From Hydra vulgaris (lineage: Eukaryota; Cnidaria; Hydrozoa; Anthoathecata; Hydridae), in contig NC_088920.1 of assembly GCF_038396675.1 (NCBI RefSeq), forward strand, positions 67,961,001-68,025,000: a DNA stretch of 64,000 nt. Direction: 5' to 3'. The position numbers were made by a program, and so were the translations under genes. A model generated the notes under the pieces. The model had not been told where the DNA came from and ran no database searches. It saw nothing but the letters and a program-made list of their open reading frames with translations. Shown here in pieces: positions 3,331 to 60,900 of the stretch. The first letter of the stretch is position 1; each line of letters opens with the position of its first letter.

Positions 3331-4244
3331 CTTAAGGCTAAATAAACAATAGATTACGAAACGCGACACTTTAATGTTTTTAAATCGGCTTATAACTTTT
3401 TACTTAATAACTCTTACGACTCATTTGCATTTTTTTAATGAAAATAATTTTAACTCGCGGTTTTTTGAATTAGGAACTTTTAAAATGAATTCAAATCATT
3501 AAATAATAACTTTACGGTAATACAAATATAAGAAGTATAATTAACAATATTGACAAACTAAAACATTTTCTTGTAGAATAAAATCATTTGTTCAGTATTA
3601 TAAGCTTAACAGAAAATTAGTGTTCTGACGAATCATCCAGAATAAATTCAAACCTATTAATTCCGAACTACAAACTAATATCTTATGAGCAAAAAGTTCA
3701 AAAAGGAGGAGCGGGAATTATGACATATATTCATAATGATCTGACAACTAAAATTAGAGACGATCTTTCGGTTTTTGATGCCGATGGTGAGATCTTTACA
3801 ATTGAAATAATAAACCAAAAATTAAAAAAAATACTGATGCCCACCTGATACAAACCACCTGAAGGTGATATAAAAGGATTTTGAAATTGTCGAAAATAAA
3901 TATTTCTAAAAACCAACAAAGAGCACAAAATATTATTCTGTATTGGAGACATAAACTGCCTACAGTACAATGATGATGCTGTAAACAAAATTTTTTTTGA
4001 CGATATGTTTCAATACTACATCTTTCCTATAATAAACAAACCCACTCGGGTAACATCAAATTCAATCACTGCAATAGACAACATATTAACTAGTTCATTT
4101 TATGATTCTTCATTAAAAGCAGGTGTAATCAAAACGCATATATCCGATCACTTTCCAATATACTTTTCCTTTTTTCAAGATACAAAAAATAATAACTCCA
4201 AAATCAAAGTCTTTAAACGAAAATTTAATAATTTTACTATTTAA
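3331..4244 (+). pseudogene. LINE ORF2 apurinic-endonuclease domain remnant
   Basis: In plus-strand frames one reads IPNYKLISYEQ, then GGAGIMTYIHNDL, then CIGDINCLQYNDD and finally NKPTRVTSNSITAIDNILTS with THISDHFPIYFSF at 4005-4244. These are the successive blocks of the APE-type endonuclease of CR1/L2-class LINEs, including the terminal SDH motif. Two stops lie between the blocks. The LINE continues after the insertion at about 4245-4743. Confidence 0.75.
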
Positions 4245-4743
4245 CAGTTTACTACTCACTATCGGTAGTGAGGTGGGATAAGATTTATCAAGAATGCAAC
4301 ATACGTACGCTCATAGGGGGGAGGGGGAGGGGGAAGGTCTTCAAAAAGCGTACGAAAGCGTATGGGGGAGGGTTCAATTTAAAAGTACGTACTTTGATTT
4401 TCTAATTTATCACAATTAACCAGCTAATCAGTAGAAAAGTTACATTCTGACTAAAGGTTCTAGTTTGCCAACATAAAAAGATGAATGTTATATGGAGTAG
4501 AGGGTATAGTTTCCCTCTATGCACACACATGTATGGGCGCCCTCAGAATTTTTAGATGTTCCAGATAGGACACTTTCACACATCGTGCAAACTCCTAACT
4601 TAAGTTTGTTTTCAATATTACTGATCTCGCGTAAGACTCGTATTTTACTTACTAAAGAGGGGTGCCTGAAAAAAACGTCCGCCTTAAGGGGGGTCAAATT
4701 TCAAAATTTTAGGCGTACGTACTTTATGGACGACCCCTTATAG
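4245..4743. mobile_element. Insertion in the LINE with GTACGTACTTTATGGACGAC end
   Basis: LINE coding similarity stops at 4244 (next to a TTAA) and resumes at 4744 with EQQLKVKYLQRPWITRGMKN-like sequence, so about 500 bp are inserted. The right end reads GTACGTACTTTATGGACGAC then CCCTTA. Similar words (GTACATACTTTATGGAAGAC) occur at 14728-14750, so this is a dispersed repeat family. It contains G-rich runs near 4316-4370. A clear matching left end was not found and the superfamily is unknown. Confidence 0.5.
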
Positions 4744-4867
4744 AACAACAATTAAAAGTAAAATATTTACAACGTCCATGGATTACTAGAGGTATGAAAA
4801 ACTTGCCTCAAAAATTAAAACTCATTCAAATCATACCTAAGTGATACCCAGAGCAAACTAAAATACA
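4744..4867 (+). pseudogene. LINE linker region between endonuclease and RT (fragment)
   Basis: Reads an EQQLKVKYLQRPWITRG block, the conserved RKPWITKGI-type segment that follows the endonuclease in CR1/L2 LINEs. It ends where the 3' tail of the oppositely oriented LINE begins. Confidence 0.6.
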
Positions 4868-4971
4868 AAGAACTTTTTTTATTTTATTTTATTTATTTTT
4901 TTTGTTCTTTTTATTACATTATAAATAAGCATTTCGTTACAATATTTAAAATACAAATATATAATAATAAA

Positions 4972-5090
<119 letters not shown>

Positions 5091-5120
5091 ACCGTTATTA
5101 AATAATAAAAGAACGCAGGA

Positions 5121-5154
5121 ACTCGTAGAAGACCATACGGTCTTGTCGTCGAGT
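5121..5154 (-). other. LINE 3' stem-loop
   Basis: On the minus strand ACTCGACGACAAGACC is followed by GTATGGTCTTCTACGAGT; the outer ACTCG/CGAGT and the inner AAGACC/GGTCTT pair. It is in the 3'UTR position of the minus-strand LINE and shares its core with hairpins at 7739-7772, 12564-12606 and in the SINE near 19048-19087. Confidence 0.65.
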
Positions 5155-6601
5155 ACCGCTAAGAAATGATCGTGTTAAAATTTATAAGATATTTACAAGA
5201 TAAAAAATAAGTTACCGAAGTAAGAAACTTAAAATATTCCGTTACAAATACAAGATACATTATTATATATTACAGTTGTTAATGATGCATATATAATTTT
5301 TATAAATCAATAGTTAAATAGGGGGTAAAAAGGAAGATCACTAAAAAAAAAAAAATATATCAAAAGTATATTGTTACATCTTCAATTGTAAAAATGAGTT
5401 CTTTAAGCTTTCGTTTAAAAGAAAAGTAGTTACTTTGATGAATAAAATCCTTAGTAAAATTTTTTAAAACTATTTTAAAATATATGAGACGTGCTACATG
5501 CTTCTGCTGACAATAAAGAGGTTTAAGTTTAATTTTCTTTGCACTACCCCAAGCAATGTTTGCATAGTTTATGTGATAATGAATAAATGAGTGATATAAT
5601 TGTACTAAAGTACGTTTATTTAAAACATTTCTTGCTTTGTACAATATTCCTATACTTTTTGAAATTTTACTTGATAAGTTTTTAATGTGACTTTTCCATG
5701 TAAGATTTTCATCTATACAAACACCTAGAAAGTTGGTTACTGTTACTTGTTTAATTTGTATATTGTCAATAACAAGATGAGGCATGTTAATTGGCAGTTT
5801 ATGTTTTTTGATAAGAGAATGGAAAAGAACCCATTTAGTTTAATCAATGTTAAGAGATAATTTGTTAGTCTTAAACCAGTCAGATATTTTGATTAACTCG
5901 ATGTTCAAGCAACTAAATAAAGTAGGAATGCTTTTGTGTGACATAAATAAATTGGTGTCATCAGCAAACATAATTGTTATTAAATCCGAGGCTTTGTATA
6001 AATCATTAATACAAATAAGGAAAAGAAGAGGTCCTAATATGGATCCTTGAGGAACTCCACATGTAATATTTAACAAATTTGATGATAATGTTTCATCGGC
6101 GTAAACAAATTGTTTGCGATTAGTTAAATAACTTTTTAACAATTTTAAAACATTGCCTGTTATACCACAACATTTTAATTTTAGAAAAAACAGAGAGGAT
6201 AGAAATAAGACGATAGTGTTTAACATTAGTTTTTTCTCCTTCTTTAAATATAGGAATAATTTTTGCTATTTTTAAATCATCAGGAAAAACTCCCTGATTA
6301 ATAGAGCATTTAAAAATTTGGAAAAGTATGTCTTTTAAAACGTCAAAAGAGTTTATAATAACGTTCCCATTGACATCATCCGGACCAACTGCTTTATTTG
6401 ATTTTAACAATTTATAAGCACTTTCAAACTCTTCAAAAGACAAATCAAAAAAATTCAGATACGAGTTTAGAGGGTCATATGTTGCCTTAAATGATTTTTT
6501 AGGGTTTGGAATTATTTCGGCTAGGTTTTGTCCTACAGATACAAAATATTTATTAAATTCGGAAGCAATTGTTTTTTGATCAAGAATAAAATTATCATCT
6601 A

Positions 6602-7505
6602 GGGGAAAGGCGCCTATGATGGCATACTTAACTTTGAAGCTTCATTATTCAGTATCCTGAAGACCAATAATAAAAGTTTTGATATGGATACATTCCTTGT
6701 TACATCTAGAACAATAATTACCTTGGGAGTTTTCATCAGTTTTATTTTTTTATATAAGTTATTCTTAATGTAAAAAAATGCACAAGTATGCCATCATAGG
6801 CAACCACTGCTCCTATGATGGCATAGGGGAGGATGGGGCTAGTTAGGATCGAGAGTAACTTAATGATTTCATTTAACCTTAGAGTTTTCCCTTAGAAAAG
6901 TCAGAAATTACTCGAAACCATCCTAATTTACCATTTCATGCTACACACCAGCATTGTAAAATTTTGCGCATGCGCATAGGATATATTGCGTTTTACGTAT
7001 ATTTTTGACCAAAAAATTTGTTAGAGCATCGCTTTCTTTTAACTTTACTTAAAAATAAGTTTTTCTTATAAAAAAAAAAAGGTTTTCCCAACTCGTCAAT
7101 ATTTCAACACCCCCAACTCGTCAGTATGCCATCATGGGTAAAAGTCATCATTTTCATTAAAACAAGCTGTGTCTGCTTTGTTCAAAAGATAAAATTAAAG
7201 TAACTATTGCACTAAATGCACAAAACTTGAATATAAAATGCATGAAAATTTCATTTCTGCCCAGTTAATAGTAAAATCACAATCTTAAATATATGAAGGA
7301 AATAAAACTACAACAGCACATCCCAAAATCGATTTTTGTTGATTATAAAAACAATATTTGTGCACAAGGGACGTTTTTTCACTAAAACTAATGTAAAGTC
7401 AGTATAGTCATGTAGGTCTAATCATTTTTTTATCAAAACCAGTTTTAATAGAAATATGACCGGTATGCCATCATAGGCGCTATGCCATCATAGGCGCCTT
7501 TCCCC
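6602..7505. mobile_element. TA-flanked 904-bp DNA element with perfect GGGGAAAGGCGCC inverted ends
   Basis: Both ends read GGGGAAAGGCGCCTATGATG followed by GCATA, a perfect match of about 25 bp. TA is duplicated at 6600-6601 and 7506-7507. Removing the element plus one TA joins the flanking RT reading frame without a gap, which proves the insertion. Internal subterminal copies of TGCCATCAT(A/G)GG occur near 6790, 6812, 7127 and 7465. No transposase frame is present, so it is a non-autonomous Tc1/mariner-like or related element. Confidence 0.85.
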
Positions 7506-11517: not shown

Positions 11518-12045
11518 AAAATTTAGGTATAATGTACAAAGCAAAGCAGTTATTACATCGATCTTGTTTAAAAAGCATTTACTTTTCTTTTATTCATTGC
11601 TACTTATGCGAACATTGCTTGGTGTAGCACTAACGCGACGAAAATAAAAAAATTGCTTAGCAAACAAAAACAGGCTATAAGGATAATTTCAAACGTAGAT
11701 CGCTTCTCACACACACAAACACTATTTAATGAACTCAATATCCTAAATGTATATAAACTAAACCTCTATCAAGTTCTTATTTTCATGTTCAAACTTGATA
11801 AAAATATATTACCAATCTTATTTTATTCAATTTTTGAAAAAATAAATCACATATACCCTACTAGATTTTCAAAATACAACTACATTCAATCCAAAACTTA
11901 TTATTCCGCTATTGTAAAGCGAGGACCAAAGTTGTGGAATATAATATTAAATAATGAAATGAAAACTAATTATTCTCTAAACCAATTCAAAACAAAACTT
12001 AAGCAATTACTTTTGTTAACTGAAAATGAATTAAATTTTTTTTAA
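11518..12045 (+). pseudogene. LINE RT C-terminal fragment, plus strand (5'-truncated copy)
   Basis: Starts in shifted frames with KNLGIMYKAKQLL and YANIAWCSTNATKIK. It then has a clean frame from 11653 with KQKQAIRIISNVDRF, LFNELNILNVYKLNLYQVL and KRGPKLWNIILN, ending at 12045 with KTKLKQLLLL. This is the standard thumb and C-terminal tail of CR1/L2-like RT. The upstream RT core is absent, consistent with 5' truncation on insertion. Confidence 0.8.
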
Positions 12046-12606
12046 TAAAACTTCTTTATATTAGAAATCAATAATTAATAGTTAATTAATTACTTTAGAT
12101 TATTAATACATAATTAATCAATAATTGTACAAATATTTTTATCATTTTAAATGATAATCTTCTTTTTGAGAAATTTATTTTTTATTTTTGCGTTATTTAT
12201 TAATCTTTTACTTTTATTTTATACTGTTTATTTGCTTTTACTTAATTGGCAATGAAAAGTATTATAAATATAATTAAATAAGTTAAACTATAAAATGCTC
12301 TACCAATAAAATGTTTTTATATAAAATCATATCTTCTTATTTTAAACCAATTCTTAAATGTTATTTTTGCCATTTAATATTTTAATAAATTTTGTTTCTT
12401 TTATTTTACAAAGCAATTGTTATATCTTATTTTTTGAAAAACTATAAATTTTAAACGATATGCGATATATTTAAATTTTCTTTTATAATATATATCAGAG
12501 ATATATACATTGAAACTATATTTTATTGTCAAACTATATTTTGTCTAGTAATGACGCATTTTTCGGGGCTTAATGATAAGACTAAATTTGTCTTCTTCTA
12601 GCCCCG
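12046..12606 (+). other. LINE 3'UTR with terminal stem-loop
   Basis: AT-rich, non-coding, directly after the RT stop. It ends with a hairpin at 12564-12606 whose arms are CGGGGCT and AGCCCCG; the core GATAAGAC ... GTCTTCT is shared with the other LINE tails and the SINE in this window. Confidence 0.6.
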
Positions 12607-12607
12607 G

Positions 12608-12667
12608 TCATGTTATTATTTTTTTATAAGTTACGACTGTAAATTTTTTTTTTATCGGCAAAAAAGT

Positions 12668-12698
<31 letters not shown>

Positions 12699-13656
12699 AC
12701 TTCTAAAAACTTTATAGTATCTTGTTTTTTAATTTGTTTATAGTTTACAATAAGTTTTCGCAGTTTTAGAGGAAGGTTTTCTTCTTGTGTTTTTTTATAA
12801 ATCAAGGTATATTGTGTTTTTTCAACGTTAAGAAAAAGTTTATTTGACCTGAACCAATCATTTACTTTTTCTAATTCAATGTTCGTATCAGCATATAGTT
12901 GATTCATAATGCTATTAGATAAAAATAGATTATTTTTTTCTGAAAACATGACAGCATTTAGTTTTACTGATGCATTATTAAAATCATTAACATAAATTAA
13001 AAATAAGAGTGATCCTAGAATCGATCCTTGAGGCACTCCACACAGAATATTCAGTATTCCGGATTTCTTGTTTTGAACATATTGTTTTTCTAGATATATA
13101 ACTTTTTATACAATGATATAATTAACTGCATCTTCGTTAGTATTATGACAAACATAGATATCATTCCAATTTTCTATATTTAATTTATTCGATAGTTCAT
13201 TTATATTAGTAATTGTTAAGTTACTTTTTTTAAATTTGTAAACTTTGGCTGAGTATCTTGAGTACCTTTTTTAATGGTCAGGATATGATGGATAGATCGG
13301 GAAATGATCGCTTATATCTGTTTTATAAAATGCCTGACTGAAATGACGTTTCTAAGTATATGTTTCTAAGTATATTATCAATTGCTGTTTTTGAGATTTT
13401 ATTCACTCGAGCAGGTTTATTGATTACTGCTTTAAATTTTTCAAAGTTTTTACGCACGCTTATGTTTAAATGAGATGTAGAAAAAGACATCTTTTTTAAT
13501 TTTAAAATTATAAGGATCAAAATATGATGTTTTCATTAAGTTTATTTGAGTTTCTATGATAATATTTAAACTATCTTCAGAGAAGTTAAGAAAACCCATT
13601 AAAGTATCAAAATTTAAAGTTTTAAAATCATCGTTAGCAAAAAAATTTTCAGCCAT
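12608..13656 (-). pseudogene. Internally deleted LINE, minus strand, with destroyed RT catalytic motif
   Basis: Upstream part (about 13200-13520): KPARVNKISKTAIDNILRN and KTDISDHFPIYP, end of the endonuclease domain. Next KSNLTITNINELSNKLNI and DAVNYIIV. The sequence then jumps directly to LEKQYVQNKKSGILNILCG and VPQGSILGSLLFLIYVNDF at about 12990-13090, so the first half of the RT is deleted. The expected FADDTNLF is MFSEKNNLF here, so the two catalytic Asp are lost. It breaks off at an A/T run at 12679-12700. The upstream 68-codon frame 13450-13656 has no recognised domain. Confidence 0.75.
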
Positions 13657-15299: not shown

Positions 15300-17030
15300 T
15301 CTTTTTTACAAGGGTAAAACCTTATTGTTTTTCCTAAGGATTACGCAGAACTATTTGCAAAGAATTTTTCCGTTATTCCATTTCTCAAATTAAATGGCCG
15401 TACACTTCCTTGCATTCCTGTTAAAAAGCTTAACCCTTCATTGTTAGACATCCAAATCACTCTAGCTTCAATTGCTTTCTCAATTAAACTCTTCATTCCT
15501 TTTATTTTATATTTCTTCTGATTCGATTCTTGAATCTTATGGTAATTGAATCTTATGGTAATTGAATCTTATGGTAATACTCTTCCTGCCATTCTAGTTA
15601 AACTGGTTAGCTCAGAATTCCCTTCAATTCTCTCTAAACTATTTAATAAGTGACTAAATCTTTTTTTCTTGCCTGCTGGAAAATGGCATCTGTGGTTCTA
15701 ACTTCTAAAAAAATACCTTTTTAAAAAAAATTAAAAAATACAATTTAAGAGCTGTGGGGGTGTATTATTAAAAGTTAAAACACAACTTCACCCCCACCCA
15801 CCCTTAAATTATCCAATCAGTTTTCTTTCTATTATTAGCAAGATTTTTGAATCTTTAATTAGCAAATTTCTGATTTTATCTTGAATCAAATAATTACTCT
15901 CTGACAATCAATACGGATTTTGAACTTCTCGTTCTACGACTGACTTGCTGAGTGATATAATGGAAAGGTTCTATCGTGCATTAGATTAGGGTGGTAATGC
16001 AAAGGCTTAACCTTTCAAAAACTTTTATAAAGTTTTGTTTGCTGATATTCTCTATAAACTTACTTTATATAGTGTATCTGGGAAAATTTTTGAGATTGTT
16101 AAATTATTTCTTTCTAACCGCAGTATCAAAGTCATCCTCAAAGGCCAACGCTCTTTTTAATTTCCAGTAACTTCTGGGGTACCACAAGGTTCCATTGTTG
16201 GTCCTGATTTGTCTCTTATCTACATTAATAATCTTCCTGACAACCTTACATCTAAAGTAGCTCTTTTTGCTGATGACTCAACTTTATATTCTTGTCTTGA
16301 CAAAAAAACCTTTTTTCTTGATCGCATAGAACAGGCAGCCAATCTTGAATCTGATCTCACTTCTGTAACAGATTGGAGCTTGCAGTGGTTTGTGAATTTT
16401 AACTCCAACAAAACTCAGTTATTTATTAAAAACAACAGTTGCAATATTGTTGACATTCCTACTTTACGTCTTCTCGAATTATTATTCACCACTGATCTTT
16501 CATAAAAACCAAATTTACATTCTATTGCAAAGCATTTTCTTTAGTTTTCATTAGCATGAAAAAGAGAATTGCGTCACAACTAAGCAAACTAACATGATAA
16601 AGAGAATTTCGGCTCAACTAAGCAAATGTTAACTATTTAATGATTAGCATTTGTTTAGTAACTTAGCAAATAAGTAGTAAAGTAAGCTTACGACGGATTC
16701 AATTCTACAAATCTCTTCTTTTTTTGTCCCTTATGGAATACTGTTGCCATATTTGGACTGGATCAACTAATGATGCTTTTTCTCTTCTAGACAAGGTCCA
16801 GAAGTGGAAGTTTTTCTATCCCACTAAAACAATTCCTCATCCCACCTAAAGTTTTTTAAGTCTTTCGTTAACTGTTTTCTTGTACTTTAACAATATTTTT
16901 TGTTTTTTGTAACTCCCAACTTAATAGTGATTGCTTGTCTTGCTGCCTTGCTGAATGTGACTTAGTTTGAAAAATAATAGAAATATTGTTTACAAGCAGT
17001 TTTAAGAGTCACTCACAAAGAATAAGTATG
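15300..17030 (+). pseudogene. Jockey-like LINE ORF2 remnant, plus strand
   Basis: Plus-strand frames give FPKDYAELFAKNFSVIPFL and LPCIPVKKLNPSLLDIQIT (15330-15460). They continue with FKVLFADILYKLTLYSVSGK-like text (about 16030), VTSGVPQGSIVGPDLSLIYI (about 16165-16230), NNLPDNLTSKVALFADDSTL (16230-16290) and a block ending DWSLQWFVNFNSNKTQLF (about 16370-16420). YKSLLFLSLMEYCCHIWTGS at about 16710-16770 is the thumb. The FADD motif survives, but stops and frameshifts are many. A 17-bp triplication of AATCTTATGGTAATTG at 15535-15580 interrupts it. The same LINE type appears on the minus strand at 58329-58655. Confidence 0.8.
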
Positions 17031-22198: not shown

Positions 22199-22369
22199 AT
22201 CTTTTTATTTAAAAAAGTTTATAGATTATACACACCACATACTACATAACTTTTATAATAAACACTATATAGAATGTGATATTTACATGTCACATTCTAT
22301 ATGGTGTTCATTATAAAAGTTATGTAGTATGTGATGTGTATAATCTAAAAACTTTATAAATAAAAAGAT
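22199..22369. repeat. 171-bp inverted repeat (foldback element)
   Basis: The left arm starts ATCTTTTTATTTAAAAAAGT and the right arm ends ACTTTATAAATAAAAAGAT. The arms are about 80 bp with few mismatches and contain ACATACTACATAACTTTTAT in common. The centre is near 22284. No TA- or TTAA-type duplication could be assigned. Confidence 0.75.
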
Positions 22370-22617
22370 GTACATACAATAAAATTTACAAAGTCTGACT
22401 TAGTTCAACCAAGTTTAAATTGGTAAAAAAAGAAAAAATTGAAGTAAATAAGTAATAGATGTGCAACCCTACTATTTTATTAAATTGTTGGTTATAATAA
22501 TTGTTACAAAATATATTTGATTAAATAATTATAAACTGTATTTAAAGACGAAAAGGTTTCTATTAAAACACAAATGTTTAGTTTTTATACTAAATATACT
22601 ATTGATTATTATTTTAG

Positions 22618-22760: not shown

Positions 22761-22764
22761 AAAT
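22761..22764. repeat. Target duplication AAAT, left
   Basis: AAAT directly precedes the CACGGTG end at 22765 and is repeated at 28231-28234 after the other end. Confidence 0.7.
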
Positions 22765-22809
22765 CACGGTGATTTAAGCATAGGATTTTATTGTGAGCAT
22801 GCGCACACG

Positions 22810-23959
22810 TTTTATTTTTAAAACAACAAAAAAAAAATGGCGAAGTGATTTTCAGATAAATAACAATAATTCCTTGATTTAGTTTCATACTAGACATTTA
22901 CTTATTTCTCATTAAATAACCAGCACGGTATACTTTTGAAGTCTTCCATCATAGAGTGTTGATAGTAAAACTTAAAAATCAATAAGAATGTTTTCAAACA
23001 AAGAAAATTTTAATGTTCAAAATGTAAGGTTTTTTTTCTAAAAAACGGAAACATCTGTTAGACATTTGAACGAATATCTTTTGTTTGAAAATTTTTGGGC
23101 TAAAAAGTTCAATTGTTCTAGATTCAGTAAAAAATGCCCAAAACATCTGTATATGTCTTTTTAACCTGTCATTTTTTTAAAAAGAGTTGCACGCTTTAAC
23201 GGCAAGCTGTTGAAATTATTATTTTTTGCTTTTTGAAATTTAAAACCCTAAACTTGCACGATGTTCAGGGTTAAATGCAATTTTAGTAATTCTTTTTCTA
23301 TTTATATGTTATATATAGTATGAAAAACAATATTATCTAAGAAATGTATAAGAATAAAAGAATCTGTTCACAAGAAAACTCTGCAATTTTTTGGTGAACA
23401 TACTCTAATGTTTTGGTGAACATGCTCTAATGTTCTATAACATCAGATAATCTATTCCTTTTCATGATAACAATTCATATGCATGCTAAATATTATTGAG
23501 ATAATTATGATAGCATGCACAAATAATGCTCATGAGATATTGTGTCTGTTGACCGAGTGGGCCCACCTTTTTCAGGATAGGTAGGGGTCTAGGGTGCAAT
23601 TATACCTTGGCACCCTGGACCAGTTCGCCACTGCTGATAATAATAAAAAAAGAAGCGCATTTCACAATCCTGTATCCAACATAGATTATTAACATATTGT
23701 AATTAGTAAAATACCCATGCGTCTAATTCCTGGCTGTGCATACGACAAAATCCAAGAATGCGGGAGAGGGTAGTTTCTTTTCTAGTTCTAGAAAGTATCC
23801 TTTCTAATAATAATGCATTTGTTAGGATAAATACTATATATTAATATCTTCGTATCAAAATTACGATACAATTTCAAAACAAATATAAACTATATATACA
23901 CATATTTGGACTCAATTTAATTTACGCTCGAAATGTTGTTCTTTTTTTAGTTTCCGGCT
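22810..23959. other. 3' non-coding part of the N-RAG-TP-like element
   Basis: AT-rich with no coding. TTTTGGTGAACATRCTCTAA is directly repeated at 23391-23430. Near 23550-23640 a fragment whose reverse complement begins CAGTGGCGAACTGG may be the end of a small hAT-like insertion; its partner end was not found. Confidence 0.4.
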
Positions 23960-26900
23960 TCATTGCTTTGGTTTTTGGATGGTTTTGTAATGTTCCTTCA
24001 AAGTGCTTTTCAAGCGACTACAACTTTTCATGTGCCAAAATAAACGATTAAGATTGTTACATTCGGCATGCAAACTTTCGCCACCTTGTTCCCCATAAAC
24101 TCCAATGCCCAATCCCCATTTTTGAATAGAATATGGGATTCGAGCAAGTGCATCTTCGGAGTTATAGATTCATTTGGCCAAGTCAAGCGATAAAATTCCA
24201 TAAGATTGCGTATTGCTGATTCTAAAATTAAATAATTAACGAATATGAAAAAAATTTAATAGGTATTTTGTAAATAAGTTAATCAAATTTCTAACTCCTA
24301 CCTAGCTCCTGAATATCGTTCTGTTGAAAAGATTGCGAGCTGTTCATGAAGTTATGACATTTTGAATAATATTGAAACAACTGTTTAAATTTCTGACTCA
24401 CATTATTTGATAGTAAATAAACATCAGTGTCAATAAAACCAAGATTAGAAATTAGTTTTGGGATAGAATTGCACAAATCAAGCAAAGGTTGAGACTAAAT
24501 TAAATATGTTAAATTAAAAAAATTTTAAATATTTTTACTAATAAAGATTTTGAAATATAATATACAACCCTCGGAATTAGGGTCGGCATTCGGCAATGCC
24601 AACCTAACTGCCGACCTGAAAATATTTGAGATCGGCAAAAAATTGCTGACCTCGTTTCTATGTTTTATGGTTAGACCTTTGTATCAAATAATTTTTGCCG
24701 ACCTGATGCCGACCTCAAAAAGACAAAAAGATTGAGGTCGGCAAATTATTGCCGACCTCATTTTTCCTAATTCCGAGGGTTGAATATATTAAAAAAACCT
24801 TAAGCATTGTGTGAACATGGTTTCCAACAAAACATTTCCCATGATAAGCCTGTCTTTGTACATGATTAGCCTTTAAAACTTTATCAAGTTGCTGAATGCA
24901 GGGACCTGAAATTTTATCAAGAATGTTTGCTTCATTCAATGAATTTAGTTCTTTTATCTAAAAAAAAATTTTAAAACATGCTACAAAAATTGTTGGAAAT
25001 TGAATTGAAATTGATATATTTTTTGTAGCTTTCGAAGGTCTTGTTCTAAATTAAATAAAATTCATATTTTTTATACAAACATAATTATGTAACAATCAAT
25101 ACTTTGTCACTTCTTTCTAAATCATAGTGGAGTATTCTTGGTACATATACTTTCTTAATTTCTTCAGTTTTGTCTGGTTCACATAAAACTTTCACTGAAA
25201 TTGCCTCTTGTAAAAGTGTTATTTTATTATCACAGTCATCAATAATACTTTTTATAACATTTGATTGAATATGCATGTTAACATATTTGTCAAAATCATC
25301 TCTTCCAATTGTATTATTTTGTAATGCAAGTTCTCCAGCAAGTTTTATATCTATTAAGTGACATTCATCCTCAAACATGTTAAAAAACTTCAAATAGGTA
25401 CCTAAAGATATATGTAAAGCGGGTACAGCGACCTAAAAACAAAATTATAATTACTTTTAGATTTAACATCAACTGGTCCAACACTACCACTGAAACCACT
25501 ACCAGCATTAAAAATCCAAAAAATAGTGCTGAAAATAAATAACCTGATCTAGAGGAATATTAAATAATGTTTCATTAATGACATTGTTAAAAAACTTCGC
25601 CTTTTTTAAATTTCCGCTATTACTTTGAAAACAATGAAAATCAATGTTTAAAGACTTTAAAGATCTTTGTGAAACACTGTCCTTTCTATTAAGTGGAGCC
25701 AGTTGGATATTTTTTTTGGTTATATCACAAAAAAGACAGCAATGTCGACCTATAAAAACAGCTAAACTATCATTATTGTATGGTGATAAGTAAATTAAAG
25801 AAAATAAAACAATATGGTAACCTTTATTACATAAAATCTCTTAAAATACAGAAAATCTACCAATAGCTCCTGTGATTCCATATACACTGCAAAGGAAATC
25901 ATAATCTCCAAACATAAAAACACGAACATTATGATTTCTAAAAAAAAATTTAAAATTAAATAAATCAACATAAAATATTTGAATTTTATTTAAATTATGA
26001 TGCTATTTTCTTCAGAAATTGTAACTCACTGCCATATCATTTTTTGTATCTGGTCAACTTGTAGTGTATATCGAGCCCTACCATGAGATTATTTTGATAA
26101 TCTTTTGCCTCAAATGTGCTGAACACAATACTATTAGATTTTGAGTTTAGTTGGTCTTGGTTTACAATTTGGTAACTCATTTTAAATGAACCATGATCTC
26201 CTTCAATTTTAATGTGTATTTCATCATTTTTTATTCCATCTTTTTTTATTAAGTTATAACTAGAATGTTTAAATCAAATAAATACATAAGATATAAGAAA
26301 AACATTTTTAACATTTACTCTTCTTTATATTTATATTTTCAGTTAAAAATTTCCATACCTTTCAAGAATATTTAGCATAATTTCAATATTTTTAGGCAGA
26401 TTGTCTATATATGCCCAGGGAATAAGTTTGATTTCAAAAACTAACTTATTATTTTTATTTTGAAAAGTAAAATCTGCATCTAACACAACAAGATTACTCC
26501 CTGCCAAGTCATTTGCAACTACTCTTTGTTTAATGTTTGAAGCAGTGTTAATATTTTTTGAATTTAACCACCTACAATATTAAGTAATTATCATTTAGAC
26601 CTTTTTACCACGTTTAATTGACTCATTTGAATATACAACATTTATAACTCTCTATTTATTACTCTCTAAACAATTAACATTCTTTAAATATTTTTTTTCC
26701 TAGTCAAAGTTTTTAGTTTACTCCACGGTATTCCTACATCAGCCTTAAAAGCAACCAATTCTTCTGCAGTATATTCAACTATTCCAATCTTAGCACTTTC
26801 TAACAATTTACTTTTTTGATTGTCATCAAATGATTTTAGCATAACTGCTGTTTGTATTATTTGAGAATCATTTGAATTTCCAACTTGATGATTAGATTGC

Positions 26901-27767
26901 TCCATCAGGAATCTGTGTCTTTTTCTCAGTGTACTGTTGCTGCAAGATGCACTTTCCTTGTAAGCTTTAGGTGTAACAGTTAAACAAATGGGCTATAACC
27001 AAAAATAATAATAAATAAACCTATAAATATATAATTAACATAAATCTTTATTATGTTTATTCAAAATTAATCAAGTCTTTTTTTTATTTTTTATTTCAGA
27101 TTTAAGTACTTTACAAATTTTATTATATATAAATGTTTCATTACCTCTAATATATGGAAAGAACTGCAAAGGCTATTAATCATGATGTAGGTTGAACATA
27201 TAGGACATTTTGCTTCACTTTCAAGTTTACCTTTAATACTTGATGTAATACATAGACTGCAAAACGAATGTTGACAATCTTTGATCATGACTGGTTGACT
27301 CATTATTCTCCCACAAATCTTACAAATACATAATGCTATATGTGGATTTAGCTGCAGATTCAATTCAGAAATTTGTTCTTTGTTTAAAGGTAAGGGCAAC
27401 GACTCAAGAAACAAGTTTATATTTAATTGTGTCCATCTTTTAAAAATTCCCGGCATCCAAGATTGGGACTTGCTTTTCGACCAACCTTACCAAAAATACA
27501 TTTACACTCTTTTGTTGGACATTTTAACCAACTTTTTGGTATAACATTGAGTTTTTTATTTCCTCGTTTTTCAATATTTCTCATAGTTGAATAACATTTA
27601 AGGCATATTTGTTGTGGGTGAACCTCTAAACAGTCTTCATCTGTTTTTTTTTTTAAAATATTAAATATTCTTTCAGTCTTACCGGCAGTTGTTAAAGCGT
27701 CTTTTCCTGTCAAATTTTCACAAATTCTACAAACTCTTAATAATTTTTGTTGGTGTTTTTCAACCAT
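23960..27767 (-). pseudogene. N-RAG-TP-like transposase with RAG1-type N-terminus (ten exons, inactivated)
   Basis: Exons read from the sequence, 5' to 3': 27767-27145, 26992-26700, 26571-26359, 26259-26030, 25937-25861, 25749-25544, 25432-25103, 24957-24799, 24494-24302, 24221-23960; phases agree at the junctions. Exon 1 has RVCRICENL, VHPQQICLKCYSTMRN and CPTKEC as in the RAG1 N-terminal region, then a C3HC4 RING (CKIC, CQHSFCSLC, CPIC). Exon 3 gives RWLNSKNINTASNIKQRVVA. Exon 4 has EGDHGSFKMSYQIVN (probable first Asp), exon 5 FGDYDFLCSVYGITGA (second Asp), exon 6 RHCCLFC, exon 7 VPALHISLGTYLKFF, exon 8 GKCFVGNHVHTMLK, exon 10 KMHLLE and GEQGGESLHAECNNL (probable Glu). Inactivating changes: frameshifts near 27436-27448, 26060-26085 and 24125-24150, and a donor GT changed to GA at 26699-26698. 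It is the only gene of the element. Assignment of the catalytic triad is inference. Confidence 0.85.
24565..24782. mobile_element. 218-bp palindromic MITE in an intron of the N-RAG-TP gene
   Basis: The left end CAACCCTCGGAATTAGG is exactly the reverse complement of the right end CCTAATTCCGAGGGTTG. AATATA flanks both sides (24559-24564 and 24783-24788), a 6-bp duplication. The interior is built of GCCGACCT/AGGTCGGC words in both orientations. It lies in the intron between the 24957-24799 and 24494-24302 exons, so it is younger than the host transposon copy. Confidence 0.8.
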
Positions 27768-28230
27768 CTTTTAAATGATCTTCTTGAAAAGCTCTTAACT
27801 AAATATTGAAATTACGTTTCATAAAAAATGACAGGTTATAGAAATTGATAATTTTGGAAAGACAATGAATAATATTTCTATACAAAACTAACCCAAATGT
27901 CATAAAAATTTTGCTTCGACCATAATTGAAATGTATATAATGTGTTATTTTAAACCATATTACACTTTATTGTTCCATTTAGTATAGTACAAATTAAAAC
28001 ATAAATTTCAGTTGGATTTTGTGCATATAGCAGCTAAAATATGTAAACTACCATTTTATTTGTTTGAATTATAATAAACATATACCAATTTTCTTTAAAA
28101 ATGTGACACAATGCTTCAAGCTGTATAGTAAGTTTTAACACGGTAAATAAATATTTATATATTTTACTATTTGTATCAGACGCATGCGCATAATAAAATC
28201 ACAAGCTTTCATAAGTATTGAATCACCGTG

Positions 28231-28234
28231 AAAT
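28231..28234. repeat. Target duplication AAAT, right
   Basis: Directly follows CACCGTG, the right end of the N-RAG-TP-like element; equals 22761-22764. Confidence 0.7.
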
Positions 28235-28350
28235 ATAGACTGCAGAAAATATTTTTTTAGTTTTTATTAAAAATATTTTTTTAGTTATATATAAATTATG
28301 ATGATTAAAGTGAACATTATTTTTATATTTTGCATGATATTTTATAGGGT

Positions 28351-30627
28351 TTGTTACAACTGAGTTGTTACTTGTGGACAAAATTTTTTCAAACCACTAA
28401 TGATTATACTTATCATTTAAGAGACACGCACCTGTTGTTTGAACCTTGTTTTTTACGATGCAATGTTAATGGTTGCATTCGCACATTCACACTTTATAAA
28501 GTGTTACGTAAACACATTAAAAAAACTCATAGGTGTCATGATACTTTGAAAGAAGTTTTTAACAATTCAGGTATTACTATGCAAAATACAGAAAACAAAT
28601 ACTTAGCCAAAGATTATGATGAGGTTTCATATTTTGAAAGTTTAACAAAAGAAAGTGTAGCAAAAGAAAGTGTTTTTGTTGCACCTATTGTAGACGGGTA
28701 TGGTGTTTCGCAGGCAGCATTATAATTTTTGATGTCTTTTCAATCTTCTAGTTCCATTTCTCTAAGCACATCTCAGTTCATAATGGATAGTTTAAATGAA
28801 TTGCTAAATAATATTAATTATTTGCTTGCCAAGGCAGGCGTGTTAAAAACATACAGATGTGATACTGCAACATTTAATGCTCTTTCAGAAGAACTTAACA
28901 CCTGGAAAAATCCTTTTAAGAGCATTGATACTCATTATAAATTGTTGAATTATCTTAAACTAAAAGGTCTCTATGTTGAACCTGAAGCACATTCAATAGG
29001 AGATCGGTGGGATGTTAAGCGAGACAGATCAACAAAGCAACAAATACAGGTGTGTGTGAAAAATAAATTTTACCTTATACCAATTGAGAAAACCTTGGTT
29101 TTGAAACAACCTGAGACTTGGAAATTTTTAAAAAGAGATAATGAGTCAGCAAATGATATAGCAGAAGATTGGTTAGATGGTAAGCATGGCAGACAACTAA
29201 AAACATATGCCAAACATTATTTTCATAACAGTATTCATGTATTTATTTAGATTTATTCTGATGAGGTAGAGACAACAAATCCGCTTGGATCTAAAACTGG
29301 AATACACAAGTTAGGCGCATTTTATTTTACAATAAAAAACTTTCCACCAGCTGTAAATTCTGCGTTAAGCAATATTCATTTGTTGGCCTTAGCACATTCG
29401 GAAGACATTAAGCAGTACACCACTGATCCTGTTATGGAAGTTATTGTTCAGCAATTAAAAGACTTACACAATAAGGGTTTTACAGTTTTTTGTGATGGAA
29501 AAGAGCTAAATATATTTGTTGTTTTTTAACTCAAATTGTTGGTGATAATTTAGGGCTGCATGCAATACTTAGACACATGGAAAATTTTAGCAGTGCTTTA
29601 TTTGTTTGTGACTTGTGTATGGCGACTCAGGATGAGATGCAAAAAGTATTTTGTGAGTATTCTTTTACAATGAGGACACAACAATCATATGAGCAACATA
29701 TTGAGCAGCTTAAAAATGGTCCCATTTCATCTAAAGAGTGTGGCATCAAGCGGCCATCAACTTTAAAAAATTTGTACTATTACCATCCTGCTTGTAATGA
29801 CTCAGCCGATATAATGCATGATTTATTCGAAGGTGTAATTCCGTTTTAAGTCAAGTTATTTTTGCGCTACATAGTTTATGACTTGAAGCTTATTAATTTC
29901 CATGGGCTTAATTGTTGTATTAATACAATGGATTATGGTCTGGTTAGTAACTCAAAACCTAGTTTTATAAGTGAGTCAAATTTAAAATGTCACAACTCAT
30001 TACTTGGACAACGGTCAGCTCAGATGCTGATTTTGTTTTTACATTTACCATGTATTTTAGCTGATGTTACTGACAAAGTAGATAATTTAAAATGGCGTTT
30101 GTACCAATTGCTAAAGCAGCTGACAGAAATTATTTTATTGCCAAACTCTGCACTGTCACATGTTTTGTACTTAAAAGATCTTGTATCAGAGCATTATGAG
30201 TTATTTAAAATATGTTATCCTGATAAAAGACTTTTATATAAACATCACAGAATGATTCACTATGGTATTATAATAGAGAATAGCGGACCACTTTTACATA
30301 TGATGGTAATGTGGTTTGAAGCAAAGCATAACTTTTCTAACCGTCTTGCTCATTATTTGTAACTTTAAAAATATAGTGTTTTCTCTAGCAAGCAGACACC
30401 AACTTTCTTATGCTTTTGCTTGGATGACTAGATGTCCATTAAAAGGGATTTCAGATGTTGGAAATGGTACAATTATTTCATCAACAGATATTAGGCATAA
30501 GTCATTAATTTTACCTCTTATTGGTGAAAAAATAGATGTGTTTATGACTGAAAAAGTAGTCATTTTTGATCAAAAGTACCAAACTAAGATGTCTGTACTT
30601 CACTCTATTAGTGATGAAGGTCACTAA
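28351..30627 (+). pseudogene. C2H2-finger/transposase-like protein of a second DNA transposon, degenerate
   Basis: A possible acceptor (TATTTTATAG at about 28346) precedes a C2H2 region: YTYHLRDTH, CNVNGCIRTFTLYKVLRKHI, KKTH (28351-28725; the first Cys pair is damaged, CYLW). Then come 28729-29250 with LKTYRCDTATFNALSEELN and GDRWDVKRD, and 29251-29530 with YSDEVETTNPLGSKTGIHKL and GAFYFTIKNFPPAVNSALSN. SADIMHDLFEGVIPF is at about 29800-29849, and 29862-30362 ends with CYPDKRLLYKHHRMIHYG. The last block (30360-30627) starts LASRHQLSYAFAW. This order is that of a widespread animal transposon gene with N-terminal fingers and a D-I-M-H-D-x-x-E-G-V block, probably CMC/EnSpm-related (recalled). 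Stops and frameshifts after 29250, 29530, 29849 and 30362 make it inactive. No inverted ends were found. Confidence 0.65.
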
Positions 30628-41470: not shown

Positions 41471-42730
41471 ACGTCTGTTCACAAAAAATCCGGAATGAAA
41501 AATTGTTCTTAATTGAATACAAAATTAATCGATTTTTGACAAAAAATTTTTAACTAAAATGAGTGACTGGACATTGTTAACTATTTTATAACCGAAAGTG
41601 GTCCTAAATCAGCGGCTTTTCGAACTTTAGTTTTGACTGAATCCATTAGGTTGAAAAAGTAGTCTGGATCAAACTCTTTCAACTTTAATCGAATTCTATT
41701 CTTAAGGTGGTCAAGATTTTTCGCAGTAAATCCATTTCCATAAACTTTTGCTTTTAAATGTGCCCAAAAATTTTCAATTGGCCTTAACTGCGGTACATTT
41801 GGGGGGCTATCTTTAGCGTCGACAAAGTTAATACCTAAAGTGTTGTAAGTTTCTAATGTGTGTTTTGCATAATGACATCTCGCTCCGTCAAGCCAAAATA
41901 AAATTTTCATGTTTTGATGCTTGGAATTTATAAATGGAAGAAGTCTTTTTGTAATACATTCTTTAGAATAAGTTTTTGCATCCAGTGCACAGTTTTTTAC
42001 AGCAAAATAAGGCGATGAATGACAAAAACGACTGATTGCAATCCAAACGAGAACTTTCTCGTCAAACTTTTTTTTGAAGTGAACAATTTGCACCATTTAC
42101 ACAGAAATAAGATTCATCGTCCATGATGATTTCAAACTCATTTGATGGCTTGAAAAAAGTTTTTGAAAGTTTTAATAAGTTTTTCTTTTGTTTAATTTCT
42201 TGCTTTTCTGTTGTTTTTGGTGCATTTTTTCTTTTGGTATACTTGAGTCCATGCATACTTAATAATCTATTTACGTATGAAACGCTTATCTTATATTTTA
42301 GTGCCAATTTTCTTTGCGAAATCCCGATTCTCTCTTCTGCTCTTGCAATTATGGACTCTCTCTTTTCTGGTGTAATTTTAAAAGGTTTTTTGCCGCAACC
42401 GATTTTTCTATTCATTGGCAAATTATTTTCAGACCTTTTAATTATGTCATAAATTGTAGATTTAGCGATTCCCATTTTCTTAAAATGATCCACTGTAAAT
42501 TTCTTTCCACTGTTTATGTTTTGTTTATAAAAATTTCCAATCACATTTCTAACATCGTTCTCTTTTAGATGCTCCATGTTTATTTGAATTAATTATTTAA
42601 ACTCAATTTTGCCACAAAATGAAACTGTTGTTGTTGACCGATTAAATTTAAAAATTTCGAATCGAAAATTTGAAACTTAGAACAATTTGTGTACATTTGA
42701 AATCAGTCCGGATTTTTTGTGAACAGACGT
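41471..42730 (-). mobile_element. Nearly intact Tc1/mariner element, DD37E type
   Basis: The ends are ACGTCTGTTCACAAAAAATC then CGGA and its exact reverse complement, flanked by TA at 41469-41470 and 42731-42732. The length of 1260 bp and a single transposase gene on the minus strand are normal for Tc1/mariner. Perfect terminal repeats indicate a young insertion. Confidence 0.95.
41581..42577 (-). pseudogene. Tc1/mariner transposase, DD37E, one-base frameshift
   Basis: The N-terminal half starts at 42577 and carries two helix-turn-helix regions (KFTVDHFKKMGIAKSTIYDI; GISQRKLALKYKISVSYVNR). The first catalytic Asp is in EIIMDDESYF. The frame breaks in an eight-T run (A on the coding strand) at 42068-42075; one A fewer would fuse QKK to FDEKVLVWIAIS, the normal next block. 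The second Asp is in ILFWLDGARCHYAK and Glu in VPQLRPIENFWAHLK, with 37 residues between them, so DD37E. Total about 330 residues, full length. The break could be a true mutation or a homopolymer sequencing error. Confidence 0.92.
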
Positions 42731-43677: not shown

Positions 43678-45018
43678 CTACATAGCTTTTATTTGATTAT
43701 TTGATTGCTCTATAGTTTTTCCTTCAATTTTAACGTTAGAATTAATTTTAACACCAGAATCGCTGTCATCGCTTGTCTCGTTTTTAGAAATTTCTCTTTC
43801 TGTCATAGAAAGCATTTGTATATGTTTTTTCTCTATCATATTTTGATGAGGGGTAGACTCATCAACGGAATAACTTTGAACCGTTGAATATCTTTTGGAT
43901 TTAGGAGATATCCTTTTACATTCAGAACAAAAACAATGTTTTGGATGATTTTCGTATGCTCTTATATCATGGTAGTTATGGTGATGATGATAGCTATGAG
44001 GAAGGTAACGGACAGCAGGAACAATGCAGCACTCTTCGCGACAAACTTCATTTTTGCTAGTATGAACCACGTGGTGAGGAGATCCTCTTCTATGAACCAT
44101 AACTGGAATTGGTACAACATATGATTTCCCGAGAAATTCAGGACTATAGTTTGTGTATTCATCATAGCCATTATAACCTTTGTCACTTTCCCAATGTTTT
44201 ATTTGTTCAGCTCTGGCTTTTGCACGCATTTTTTCACCTAGTAAATCATCAACACCTTTTCTCTTTTTTTCTGCACTTAATTTTTGGTGATATTTTGCAT
44301 CTCCATCTTCATAATCAGATTTTGGATCTGCAATATCTTCATCGTAACTATAGTAACGGGTTACTGGACTGCGACTTCTTGGGCGAATACCTGAGGATTC
44401 TCTTTGATTTTCACGTGAACGCGAATAATGTTCTCGAGAGTCATAAGGAGAGGGCGGGCTTCTGTGATAAATGCGCATCGGAGAACTTCTTCCATGATAA
44501 TGATCCAATGGACTGTGAGTATGAGAGACTTTTTCTGGACTATCAGTTCGGTAATACCGAGAATGAGGATAAACAACTGTAGTTACGCTTTCTGGACCCA
44601 CATGAGGGCGGTATTCAGGCGTCCTACGATGAAAGCCAGTATAAACTGGTACAGCTGTCGGTACAGATCTAGATTGAGTATAGTCTGCAAGCGGAATACT
44701 GCTAGGGCGCTTAGGTGCAATAGAAGGCAATTTTTCTTGATTTACTGAAGAGGCTTTTGGTTTACGTTTTGGACGGTATTTATAGTCTGGATATTCCGAC
44801 ATGTGTAAATCTCGAAGTCTTTTTGCCTCTTCGGCATATGGCGCTCGATCTTCTTCCGATAGCATTTTCCAAGAAGTACCTAACTGTTTTGAAATTTCGG
44901 AATTATGCATTTTGGGGTTTGCTTCGCTAATCCGTTTTCGCTCCATTCTAGACCACACCATAAACGAATTCATTGGCCGTTTAATATGTCCTTTTGGTTT
45001 ATCTAAATCAGATGCCAT
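43678..45018 (-). CDS. SOX-family HMG-box transcription factor, 446 residues, single coding exon
   Basis: The HMG box starts at about residue 12 ([20 protein letters not shown]) and ends with [13 protein letters not shown] near residue 88. It has the SOX signature RPMNx[18 protein letters not shown] and the C-terminal basic nuclear-localisation segment. Such boxes bind the minor groove at AACAAT-type sites and bend DNA. The box is close to SOX groups B and C; I do not fix the group. The remaining 350 residues are unlike known vertebrate SOX tails: rich in Ser, Tyr, Pro and His, with Y-R-S-P-type repeats (about 150-220), a YHHHHNYHD stretch, two Cys patches (CREECC; HCFCSEC) and an acidic DDSDS with VKIEG near the end. 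The ATG at 45018 follows a 40-bp leader and an apparent splice acceptor, so a 5'UTR exon lies upstream. Codons are intact throughout, unlike the surrounding mobile DNA. Confidence 0.95.
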
Positions 45019-45058
45019 TTTGACAAAATTGTTGTGAGTACAAATCTTCGTTGTTTTC
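45019..45058 (-). other. SOX 5'UTR part and splice acceptor
   Basis: On the minus strand TTATTTTTTTAG precedes GAAAACAACG at 45058, a good acceptor directly upstream of the start codon. The upstream non-coding exon was not located. Confidence 0.6.
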
Positions 45059-45725
<667 letters not shown>

Positions 45726-57900: not shown

Positions 57901-60900
57901 ATATAAAGTTGTTTTTGAATAAATTCAAAAAAGCACTAACATTTTTTTAGAAATTATTTTGATCAAATAGTTTTTTGTAATGAGTCATGTGGTTTAAGGT
58001 GCTGTATATGATATTTTAAAACAAATTCAATACATTTAAACTTATAACTTGTATTTCATAGTTAAAATGCCTATTTTTTTATAACAAAAAAGTGTAACAA
58101 AAATTTGTAACATTATTTTTATATCACTCGAAAGAAGGTGGGGGCAGGAATGTTTGCAACTTCGTAAAGATTTGTTGCATAATAAATCTAGTTAAGTTGG
58201 GTGTTAACCAAAATTTTTGAAAAGTATCAACAAAAAAAAATTTATGTTTTTTTTTGAAAAAAAAAACAAAAAAAAAAACATTTTTGCTTCCAACAAGGCT
58301 GCAAGCAACCACTAATTAAAGTTGTAAGTTACTGGAAGAGAAAAGATAAAGATTGTAGAGCAAGATGATGATTGACAGACAACTTAAAGGATTGCAAATT
58401 ATACGAATCAGGAAAGCAAGATGAAGGAAGCGAATTCCAAAGAACTGATGTTTGAGGTAAAAAACTAGATGAATAAGCGTTTTTGGAGCACTTAGGAACA
58501 GTCACAGAAAAAGGATGAGACTTAATTGAATGACAAGTAACACGAGAATGAATTTTAGTAGATGGCACAAGAGACGCTAGCTCTTTAGAGCAGTGCCCAT
58601 TATAGTATTTGTAGAAAAGAGAAAGAGAAGCAACATTATGTATTTTTAAAGACAATTTTCTGTACTTTTAAATTCAGATGATGAAAATTTTCTCGATGAA
58701 GCCATACAGGTTGAGGAACATGAGGAGCATTTACAACAGGATATGATTGATGAAGAAAGTGCAGCAGTTTGGGAAAAAAATCTAGCCATTGTTTTCCAAG
58801 AAGGTGTAAACATGCCAAGATTGAGATGTGCAGCTTTGTTCACACTTTGGAGCTAGCTAGTTGTGATGCTTTAAAAAAAACTTTTTTGGTAGAAGTCTAG
58901 AATGTTGTGAAGAAACTAAGAAATTCATAATAAATTTCTAGCTGCAGTTTTTGTTAATGCTAGATGTAGAATACTGTTAAAAGAGAATCAGATATATGAG
59001 CAAAACAAAACAAAAACTTACAAAAGAGATGCCAAAAATATAACAGTAAGTCAAGAAATAAGAAAAACAGCCAAATAAATTTGAAAAAGAAAATGATAAA
59101 AAAAACCAAAAGAAAAAAAAAAGAAAGGAAAAGTGTGACCAAAATTAATTTTTTAAATAAAAATACTGAAAATACAAATAAAAAAAACAAAAAAAAAAAA
59201 AACTATTTTTACTAAATTTAAATAAAAACAGAAGAAAGTACAGGAAATTTTCAAATGTGAAAATGAAGGAATTTAGTTCATTCTTAAGATTCATATTTTT
59301 TTTAAACTTGTATAGTTCCATCCCACAAAAGACAGAGGTTCCATCCCACAAAAGACAGAGGTTCCACCTCACAAAGGACAGAGGTTAGAAGCGTTTCTAT
59401 GAATAGCTAAACAAATCTTTGAAAAAAAAATTTTTTTTTAATTTTTTTTGAGGAAAAATATATAAATATATATAACATATTATTATTAAAATATTATAAA
59501 TATATATAATATATTATTATTAAAATATTAGACCAAAAAACTTTTGGAATGCTTTTAGATGTTTAAACAAAGACATAAATTCTAGATTATTTACCATAAA
59601 TAATAAAAAAAAACAAAGAATCCATTACTTCAGAATTTGCAAACCACTTCGAAAAAGTACTGAATACTTCAAAAATAACACATCGTAATGGAAATCATCG
59701 GAGAATTCCCCCGTGTACAAAACATGATGATGTTATAATAACTGAAGAAAATATAATTAGGGCTATTTCGAACCTAAAATTTAAAAAATCTCCTGACTCT
59801 TTCGGTATCTCAGGAGAACATTTGAAATACGCAAATTGTGATACTTTAACAAAATGGCTCATCAAATTTTTTAATTATTCCATTAATTATGGATGGACAC
59901 CATTACCAATGTCGACGTCTATTATTGTACCCCTTGTTAAATTGTATAAAAAAATCTTTAGATAGCCCGAACAATTATCGCGGTATTAGCATTATACCAA
60001 TTTTTACAAAGGTTCTAGAATACCTAATCCTTATTATATGTCCGGATATTAGAGATACTCACCCCCAACAATTTGGATTCAATGCTAACTGTTCAACGCT
60101 ACATGCTGAATTTCTAATTAGCGAAACAATTAAACATTACAATAGCAACAATTCACCTGTATACCTATGCTCTTTAGATGTAGAAAAAGCTTTTGATAGC
60201 TGCAACTGGAATATCCTATTTGATAAATTATATTTCGATAAAAAATTACCACTCTGTATAGTTAACACTATCTCTTCGTTATATAACAATAGTAGTGCAA
60301 CAGTCTCATATCAAGGTTGTAAATCAAACTCCTTTCTTCTAAAGCAAGGAGTAAGACAAGGATCGATTCTTTCACCTCACCTATATAATATTTACACTGA
60401 AAGTCTTCTTGAAACTATTACAAATCAAGGTATTGTTGGCACATCGATATATGGTAACTTCACTAACTATGGTAAATTAAACTTGTTTCTTCGTCTTCTT
60501 AATAATAAAACAACTTTAGACATTATCTTTTCACAACTGAAACACCCCTTATTTAAACATTCGTTTGTTGGCGATATTCAGGACCTATGCCGTTTTCGGA
60601 TGCTAAATTTTCAAAACTTAATTCAAAATAAAAAGAAGATAAAAATAGCACTTTCTAAAAGTGAAATTCCCTCCGAAGTTGAACAAACTTTGAAACATGC
60701 AATAGAGTGCTGGAATGCGAAAGAGCAAAGAGGAATTTTTAAACAAATTCTGGAAGAAAAAATTCTTAAGTGAAAATCACGAGAAATAACTTTCTTATTT
60801 TTCTTTTTTACTTTGTAAATTACATTGGGTGTTAAGTAAATGAAATAATAATAATATTTTTAGCTTTTGTATGTTACGTTTTACGTTAGTGATACAATTG

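Follow-up and report, generated by a model that had tools for sequence, protein, structure and literature searches.

The origin of the 12/23 rule of V(D)J recombination is the question raised by a transposon of Hydra vulgaris. The element lies in a stretch of 64,000 nucleotides of the forward strand (contig NC_088920.1 of assembly GCF_038396675.1, positions 67,961,001 to 68,025,000), referred to below as the window; all coordinates count from its first letter and are collected in Table 1. Its ends, target-site duplications, domain make-up, unequal spacing and decay jointly identify it, with high probability, as a decayed Chapaev copy. The five families or subfamilies examined have two-part ends that are not alike: behind a heptamer of the CACGG type stands a 20-bp internal block, at a distance of 12 bp at the end on the 3' side of the gene and of 22–23 bp at the end on its 5' side. 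The Hydra Chapaev families would appear to join, in one system, a RAG1-type N-terminus consisting of a CHAPA zinc region and a RING finger, a core of the RAG1 fold, and 12/22–23 spacers.

Read inward, from 22765 on the plus strand and from 28230 on the minus strand, both tips of the element are CACGGTGATT; the CACGGTG inverted ends and the AAAT duplication described in the first-pass annotation, made from the letters alone, were both confirmed. The same ends recur in many other genome copies and are therefore not a product of chance. A search of the genome (911.5 Mb in 15 contigs) gave 136 matching pieces, the window's own copy among them, a number that, like all genome-search counts given here, is a lower bound. 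Pieces of about 90–99% identity occur in eight places, a few reach 82–94%, and those of a second subfamily mostly 70–83%; the proteins closest to the element are Hydra vulgaris models.

In the window, the block reads GATTTTATTGTGAGCATGCG after 12 bp on the gene-3' side and GATTTTATTATGCGCATGCG after 23 bp on the gene-5' side; the search of the window gave 2 matches at three mismatches or fewer, against 0.09 expected. The window together with 20 fetched loci of the two subfamilies yielded 31 block matches, and in 29 of them a CACGGTG-like heptamer (at most one mismatch), sought freely, stood at 12 or 23 bp in every case; the blocks of L024 and L029 had no heptamer within one mismatch, and L020 and L023 had no block match. 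When the gap was left free (2–30 bases) in a scan of the genome for the window family, 64 ends were recovered, 43 of them at 23, 19 at 12, one at 19 and one at 27, with 3 matches to the reversed pattern. The imbalance between 19 and 43 is at least partly an effect of the pattern; the 3' ends of the second subfamily escape it because their heptamer is mostly CACGGCG and their block begins with T. Three other families (A, B and C), with about 34–54% protein identity in the compared parts, showed, in the copies that were read, a block distance of 12 bp for the 3' end and of 22 bp for the 5' end, one of these readings having listed only block matches with a heptamer upstream. A second free-gap scan, for two of these three families, returned 58 ends (29 at 22, 28 at 12 and a single one at 18) and 4 matches to the reversed pattern, so that other spacer lengths account for 3 of the 122 ends from both scans. 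Among the 22 facing pairs no more than 12 kb apart none was symmetric: 12/23 was found in 4 of 4, and 12/22 in 17 of 18, the last being 12/18. Sought as an exact pattern in genome contigs, the block matched five prokaryote stretches, which by our estimate is roughly what 18 fixed bases would yield by chance. Five elements of 2.6–3.0 kb that likewise have 12/22 ends (C9:21242501-21245073, C9:41797778-41800635, C10:28755429-28758402, C11:15449073-15451964 and C15:4564464-4567336) are probably non-autonomous relatives, as the full gene would not fit within them.

The two kinds of end are thus set apart by an offset of 10 or 11 bp, which is one turn of B-DNA. In the mechanism proposed here, the core of the transposase would recognise the heptamer and cut there, a region N-terminal to the core would hold the internal block, the two ends brought into synapsis would be of unlike kinds, as with RAG, and insertion would be staggered by 4 bp. 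From the layout of the ends we consider it rather probable that the Hydra Chapaev transposase pairs unlike ends. The asymmetry could instead have been inherited neutrally from a single indel of 10–11 bp in one ancestral end, with no role in pairing and with the block serving as an enhancer or promoter motif. Several observations favour this and weigh against pairing. The families have a common descent and sit in a single genome; both 22 and 23 are seen, which means that the length is not absolutely fixed; and a host factor could bind the short GCATGCG core, which resembles a palindrome. The letters of the 12-bp spacers are as conserved among A, B and C (83–92% identical) as those of the blocks (80–85%), and for this reason their constant length of 12 bp may be plain inheritance. 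Two further points tell against the reading of the ends as a whole: the values 12 and 22/23 vary with the position chosen as the start of the block, end identity in family B beginning 2 bp earlier (10/20), so that only the offset of 10–11 bp is independent of that choice, and by eye the block is unlike the nonamer of the recombination signal sequence (RSS). Against the neutral reading, the lengths stay at 12 and 22–23 although the spacers diverge more than the blocks in two comparisons: when the window's family (W) is set against the others, identity is 50–58% for the 12-bp spacers and 75–80% for the blocks, and among A, B and C the 22-bp spacers are 55–68% and the blocks 70–95% identical. In the spacing table the 3' and 5' ends of A2 were taken from different copies. 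The rarity of other lengths in the free-gap scans likewise argues against neutral inheritance, which we hold to be possible, with a probability appreciably below even.

The geometry of the ends resembles that of the one-turn and two-turn V(D)J signals. Convergence under the same helical constraint is nearly an even prospect, whereas common descent with the 12/23 rule seems unlikely. We attach a similarly low probability to the scenario in which the one-turn/two-turn asymmetry predates RAG, having come from a transposon ancestor with CHAPA, RING and a RAG1-fold core, and in which Hydra Chapaev still pairs unlike ends by it.

The kinship of the N-terminal region with RAG1 was examined with profiles. 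Among 177,635 distinct Protein Data Bank (PDB) sequences (E ≤ 10), a profile of the pre-RING (CHAPA) region matches RAG1 only, in three rows (E 7.8e-9, 2.4e-6 and 2.4e-6). In one search with a profile over CHAPA, the RING and a second Cys cluster, full-length RAG1 is the top match (E 4.3e-11). The RING in the window gene is recognised by Pfam zf-C3HC4 (E 8.4e-10); with the Cys-rich region before it and the transposase motifs after it, this bears out the first-pass claim that a RAG1-like N-terminal zinc region, a RING and a DDE-like transposase are joined in one gene. A different origin, in which the N-terminal half is a captured generic RING gene unrelated to the RAG1 N-terminus, draws on several results that count against the kinship. 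The RING alone, used as a single-sequence query, is matched better by generic E3 RINGs (RNF125, TRIM, polycomb) than by that of RAG1. The VIA matches of the N-terminal model (mean predicted local distance difference test score, pLDDT, 63.4) are RINGs, U-boxes and the like, with no RAG1 among the 50 listed, a comparison by which the CHAPA part is barely tested. In the Pfam run on 9 + 5 relatives, RAG1_imp_bd lies above the cut-off in three of the 14 and has no row in eight, some of which lack the N-terminus, and in the window's own exon it is weak (E 0.013). A generic RING would nevertheless leave unexplained that the pre-RING region by itself retrieves nothing but RAG1, that RAG1_imp_bd passes the cut-off in three relatives at all, and that full-length RAG1 comes first with the wider profile. 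We therefore regard a generic origin as very unlikely; a RAG1-type N-terminal region, more than a generic RING, is supported by these comparisons. The two doubts attached to the first-pass annotation, that the ends might not be conserved in other copies and that the N-terminal exon might match generic RING proteins only, do not hold, because the ends are conserved elsewhere and the pre-RING profile finds RAG1 alone.

As to the core, no significant match with RAG1 was found by sequence among 60 of the 101 rows of the profile search. The modelled core of the relative P0006 has the RAG1/Transib fold with a RAG1-type RNase H core (Foldseek, VIA); it counts against this likeness that the model is weak overall (mean pLDDT 54.5) and usable for the core alone. 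It also counts against the reading as a whole that the profile of the GG-PRP segment (alignment A4) gave no RAG1 match and one unrelated row (E 2); the segment may resemble the start of the RAG1 nonamer-binding domain, a homology not claimed here. Past the zinc clusters, the GG within SGGPRP is invariant in all 13 proteins of alignment A3, that of a lancelet included, and is perhaps a DNA contact. Altogether 20 proteins were found; A3 used 13 of them and A6 12 (plus L028), while A4 consists of 8 of the 13 in A3, and A5 of 7 of them plus the window piece. Viral contigs scanned with P0013 and P0001 contained no relative.

The class of the element follows from comparison with published accounts. 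Chapaev elements are marked by duplications of 3–4 bp, CAC/GTG tips and the motifs C(2)C, LH and H(4)H (PMC4079192). Kapitonov and Koonin (2015, PMC4411706) describe two Chapaev subgroups in which a CHAPA domain, linked by them to the N-terminal part of RAG1, is followed by a RING; among the transposable elements known at the time, they found these encoded in no others. In the Hydra element the duplication is exactly 4 bp, the ends are 5'-CAC ... GTG-3', the motifs appear by eye in alignment A1 as HCCLFC, PALHISLG and MHLLESH, and CHAPA, judged through its likeness to RAG1, precedes the RING, judged through Pfam. The features tested thus fit the Chapaev group of cut-and-paste DNA transposons. 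Exact 4-bp duplications flank 22 of 26 two-ended elements, the window's included (10 of 12 in its two subfamilies, 9 of 10 further pairs and 3 of 4 others); the scan behind the first of these three counts used fixed-length patterns and informs on ends and duplications, not on spacing. It speaks against the assignment that the other 4 of the 26 have no matching duplication; in a few copies (L024, L029, L030) the CAC...GTG tips are decayed. A RAG1-type N-terminus, a RAG1/Transib core fold and CAC ends would also suit a RAG-like (ProtoRAG/TransibSU) or Transib element of Hydra. RAG-like and Transib elements, however, have 5-bp duplications (PMC4411706, PMC8289069), and those found here are of 4 bp. 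The RAG2-like gene of RAGL, ProtoRAG and TransibSU has neither room nor an open frame in the window copy, where no frame beside the gene exceeds 69 aa (22765–23960) or 55 aa (27770–28230). Together with the lack of a significant core-RAG1 match among the rows mentioned above, this leaves the RAG-like or Transib reading with hardly any credence. Since CHAPA-RING Chapaevs are already in print (PMC4411706), what the element says on the evolution of the RAG1 N-terminus is known, and the element is a further case from Hydra.

The one gene of the element, on the minus strand between 27767 and about 23960, has several exons and holds a Cys-rich N-terminal region, a RING and a DDE-like transposase. 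It had been described as a single gene of ten exons, and as a working gene of that kind it could not be upheld: our ten-exon model has nine junctions, eight of them GT-AG and one with a lost donor (26698), three frame breaks lie inside exons, and the junction of exons 1 and 2, one of the eight, is doubtful because relatives read through that place. Phase and relatives fit a direct junction of exons 7 and 8, and a candidate exon lying between them, near 25040, was therefore left out. In related copies the encoded transposase reaches about 980 aa and comprises a CHAPA zinc region, a RING, another Cys cluster and a DDE core; among public protein models of close relatives, P0001 (N-terminal) and P0003 (C-terminal) together span it.

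Decay was judged by alignment with six copies of 96–98% identity, two of which (L018 and L019) are themselves gapped in places. Missing from the window copy are 1 nt near 27456 and 7 nt at 24129 (both present in all six), 4 nt near 26075 (filled in five, L018 being gapped), 6 nt within the first-Asp motif at 26194 (filled in four), and the GT donor at 26698 (present in five, with a gap in L019). At the site of a 241-nt deletion, the relatives P0001, P0003 and P0012 carry a stretch that lies between RING and transposase and contains one more CxxC...C cluster, and the final codons of the window copy are out of frame relative to P0002. A nested insertion resembling a miniature inverted-repeat transposable element (MITE) has apparently duplicated about 6 nt of target and is absent at six compared loci (L014–L017, L020 and L021). 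Sequencing or assembly error is an unlikely source of the frame breaks, because the losses are of 1, 4, 6, 7 and 241 nt and most of the six copies are intact there. The window copy is dead, no working transposase being encodable, and could in principle be moved by the enzyme of another copy, both end marks being intact. Of the first-pass claim of a complete element, the boundaries and ends were correct; completeness was not, given the 241-nt deletion, the frame breaks, the lost donor and the nested insertion.

Table 1. Features of the Hydra element, in coordinates of the window.
Feature	Position	Strand	Basis or remark
Transposon, very probably of Chapaev type, decayed copy	22765..28230	-	ends, target-site duplication, genome match pieces
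Target-site duplication AAAT, left	22761..22764	.	direct reading
Target-site duplication AAAT, right	28231..28234	.	direct reading
Terminal heptamer CACGGTG, gene-3' end	22765..22771	+	
20-bp internal block, gene-3' end	22784..22803	+	12 bp from heptamer (spacer 22772-22783)
Terminal heptamer CACGGTG, gene-5' end	28224..28230	-	
20-bp internal block, gene-5' end	28181..28200	-	23 bp from heptamer (spacer 28201-28223)
Exon 1: zinc region of CHAPA type (like the RAG1 N-terminus), then RING	27145..27767	-	frame broken near 27456; 3' border doubtful
Site of 241-nt deletion	27124..27125	-	filled in 5/6 compared copies
Exon 2: linker/transposase start	26700..26992	-	GT donor (26698) lost here
Exon 3	26359..26571	-	exon model, alignment A1
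Exon 4: first Asp motif (GD)	26030..26259	-	losses of 6 nt at 26194 and 4 nt near 26075
Exon 5: second Asp motif (FGDY)	25861..25937	-	
Exon 6: C(2)C motif (HCCLFC)	25544..25749	-	motif named in PMC4079192
Exon 7: LH motif (PALHISLG)	25103..25432	-	
Exon 8	24799..24957	-	exon model, alignment A1
Nested 224-nt insertion, MITE-like, inverted ends CCCTCGGAATTAGG	24565..24788	.	gained in intron after exon 8
Exon 9	24302..24494	-	exon model, alignment A1
Exon 10: H(4)H motif, catalytic-Glu candidate (GEQGGES)	23961..24221	-	frame broken at 24129 and again near C-terminus

The surroundings of the element in the window hold further mobile sequences. A large MITE-like inverted repeat was seen by eye to its left (22200–22370), and on the other side it is flanked by exons of a second transposase-like gene at 28348–30362 (+), with a C2H2-like finger and the motifs GDNLGLH...CDLC and DIMHDLFEGV; three pieces of this gene were scanned without a Pfam match, and we take it to be CACTA-like from its appearance. 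Pieces of a Tc1/mariner-like transposase lie at 41581–42592 (-), where DDE_3 matches 41581–42096 at 1.6e-5, below the cut-off. Reverse-transcriptase fragments of the long interspersed nuclear element (LINE) type were found at 59850–60773 (+) (RVT_1, 5.1e-18) and, by eye, at 3900–6641, 11572–13105 and 16161–16505. A 487-aa open frame at 43678–45141 (-) with an HMG box (Pfam HMG_box, 2.2e-23), SOX-like by eye, is probably a host gene.

Among known systems, the Chapaev elements (PMC4411706, PMC4079192) share with the Hydra element the 4-bp duplication, the CAC...GTG ends, the C(2)C, LH and H(4)H motifs and the order of CHAPA and RING. The parts of these two accounts that were available contain no mention of bipartite one-turn/two-turn ends, and the Hydra window copy differs in being decayed; unequal 12/22–23 ends of Chapaev are likewise not mentioned in the available parts of PMC4411706, PMC4079192, PMC8355894, PMC7204232, PMC8289069 and PMC6941560, a scope that does not take in Repbase Reports, Yuan and Wessler 2011, Kapitonov and Jurka 2005, or Panchin and Moroz 2008. 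The N-RAG-TP of Aplysia (PMC8355894, PMC2996935), to which the first-pass annotation likened the element, is a transposon encoding a protein similar to the RAG1 N-terminus, as here, whereas the Hydra gene also holds a DDE transposase; the two are set apart by descriptions, not by sequences. Transib (HzTransib) differs in its canonical core-only transposase (PMC4411706), its 5-bp duplications and its mostly symmetric ends (PMC8289069), and some Transib ends carry RSS-like heptamers and nonamers with spacers of various lengths (PMC6941560). ProtoRAG and RAGL (PMC8289069, PMC7204232) have, like the Hydra element, a core of RAG1-type fold, CAC tips and bipartite unequal ends (TR1-27/31-TR5), and are distinguished by 5-bp duplications, a RAG2L partner and a 27/31 arrangement with an offset of 4 bp, against 12/22–23 with an offset of 10–11 bp in Hydra. 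The ends of invertebrate RAG1/2-like gene pairs are described as having no 12/23 spacer asymmetry (PMC8355894), and the suggestion in PMC7204232 is that end asymmetry may matter rather little to invertebrate RAGL. The 12RSS and 23RSS of V(D)J recombination are similar to the Hydra ends in the heptamer (CACAGTG against CACGGTG, one base apart), in a second element placed one or two turns away, and in spacers of 12/23 against 12/22–23; where they have the nonamer ACAAAAACC, the Hydra ends have the 20-bp ATTTAT...GCATGCG block. A 12/23-like spacing in Transib ends was reportedly discussed by Kapitonov and Jurka in 2005. Hydra Chapaev would offer a cnidarian system for testing directly either the 12/23 rule or a look-alike shaped by the same helical constraint.

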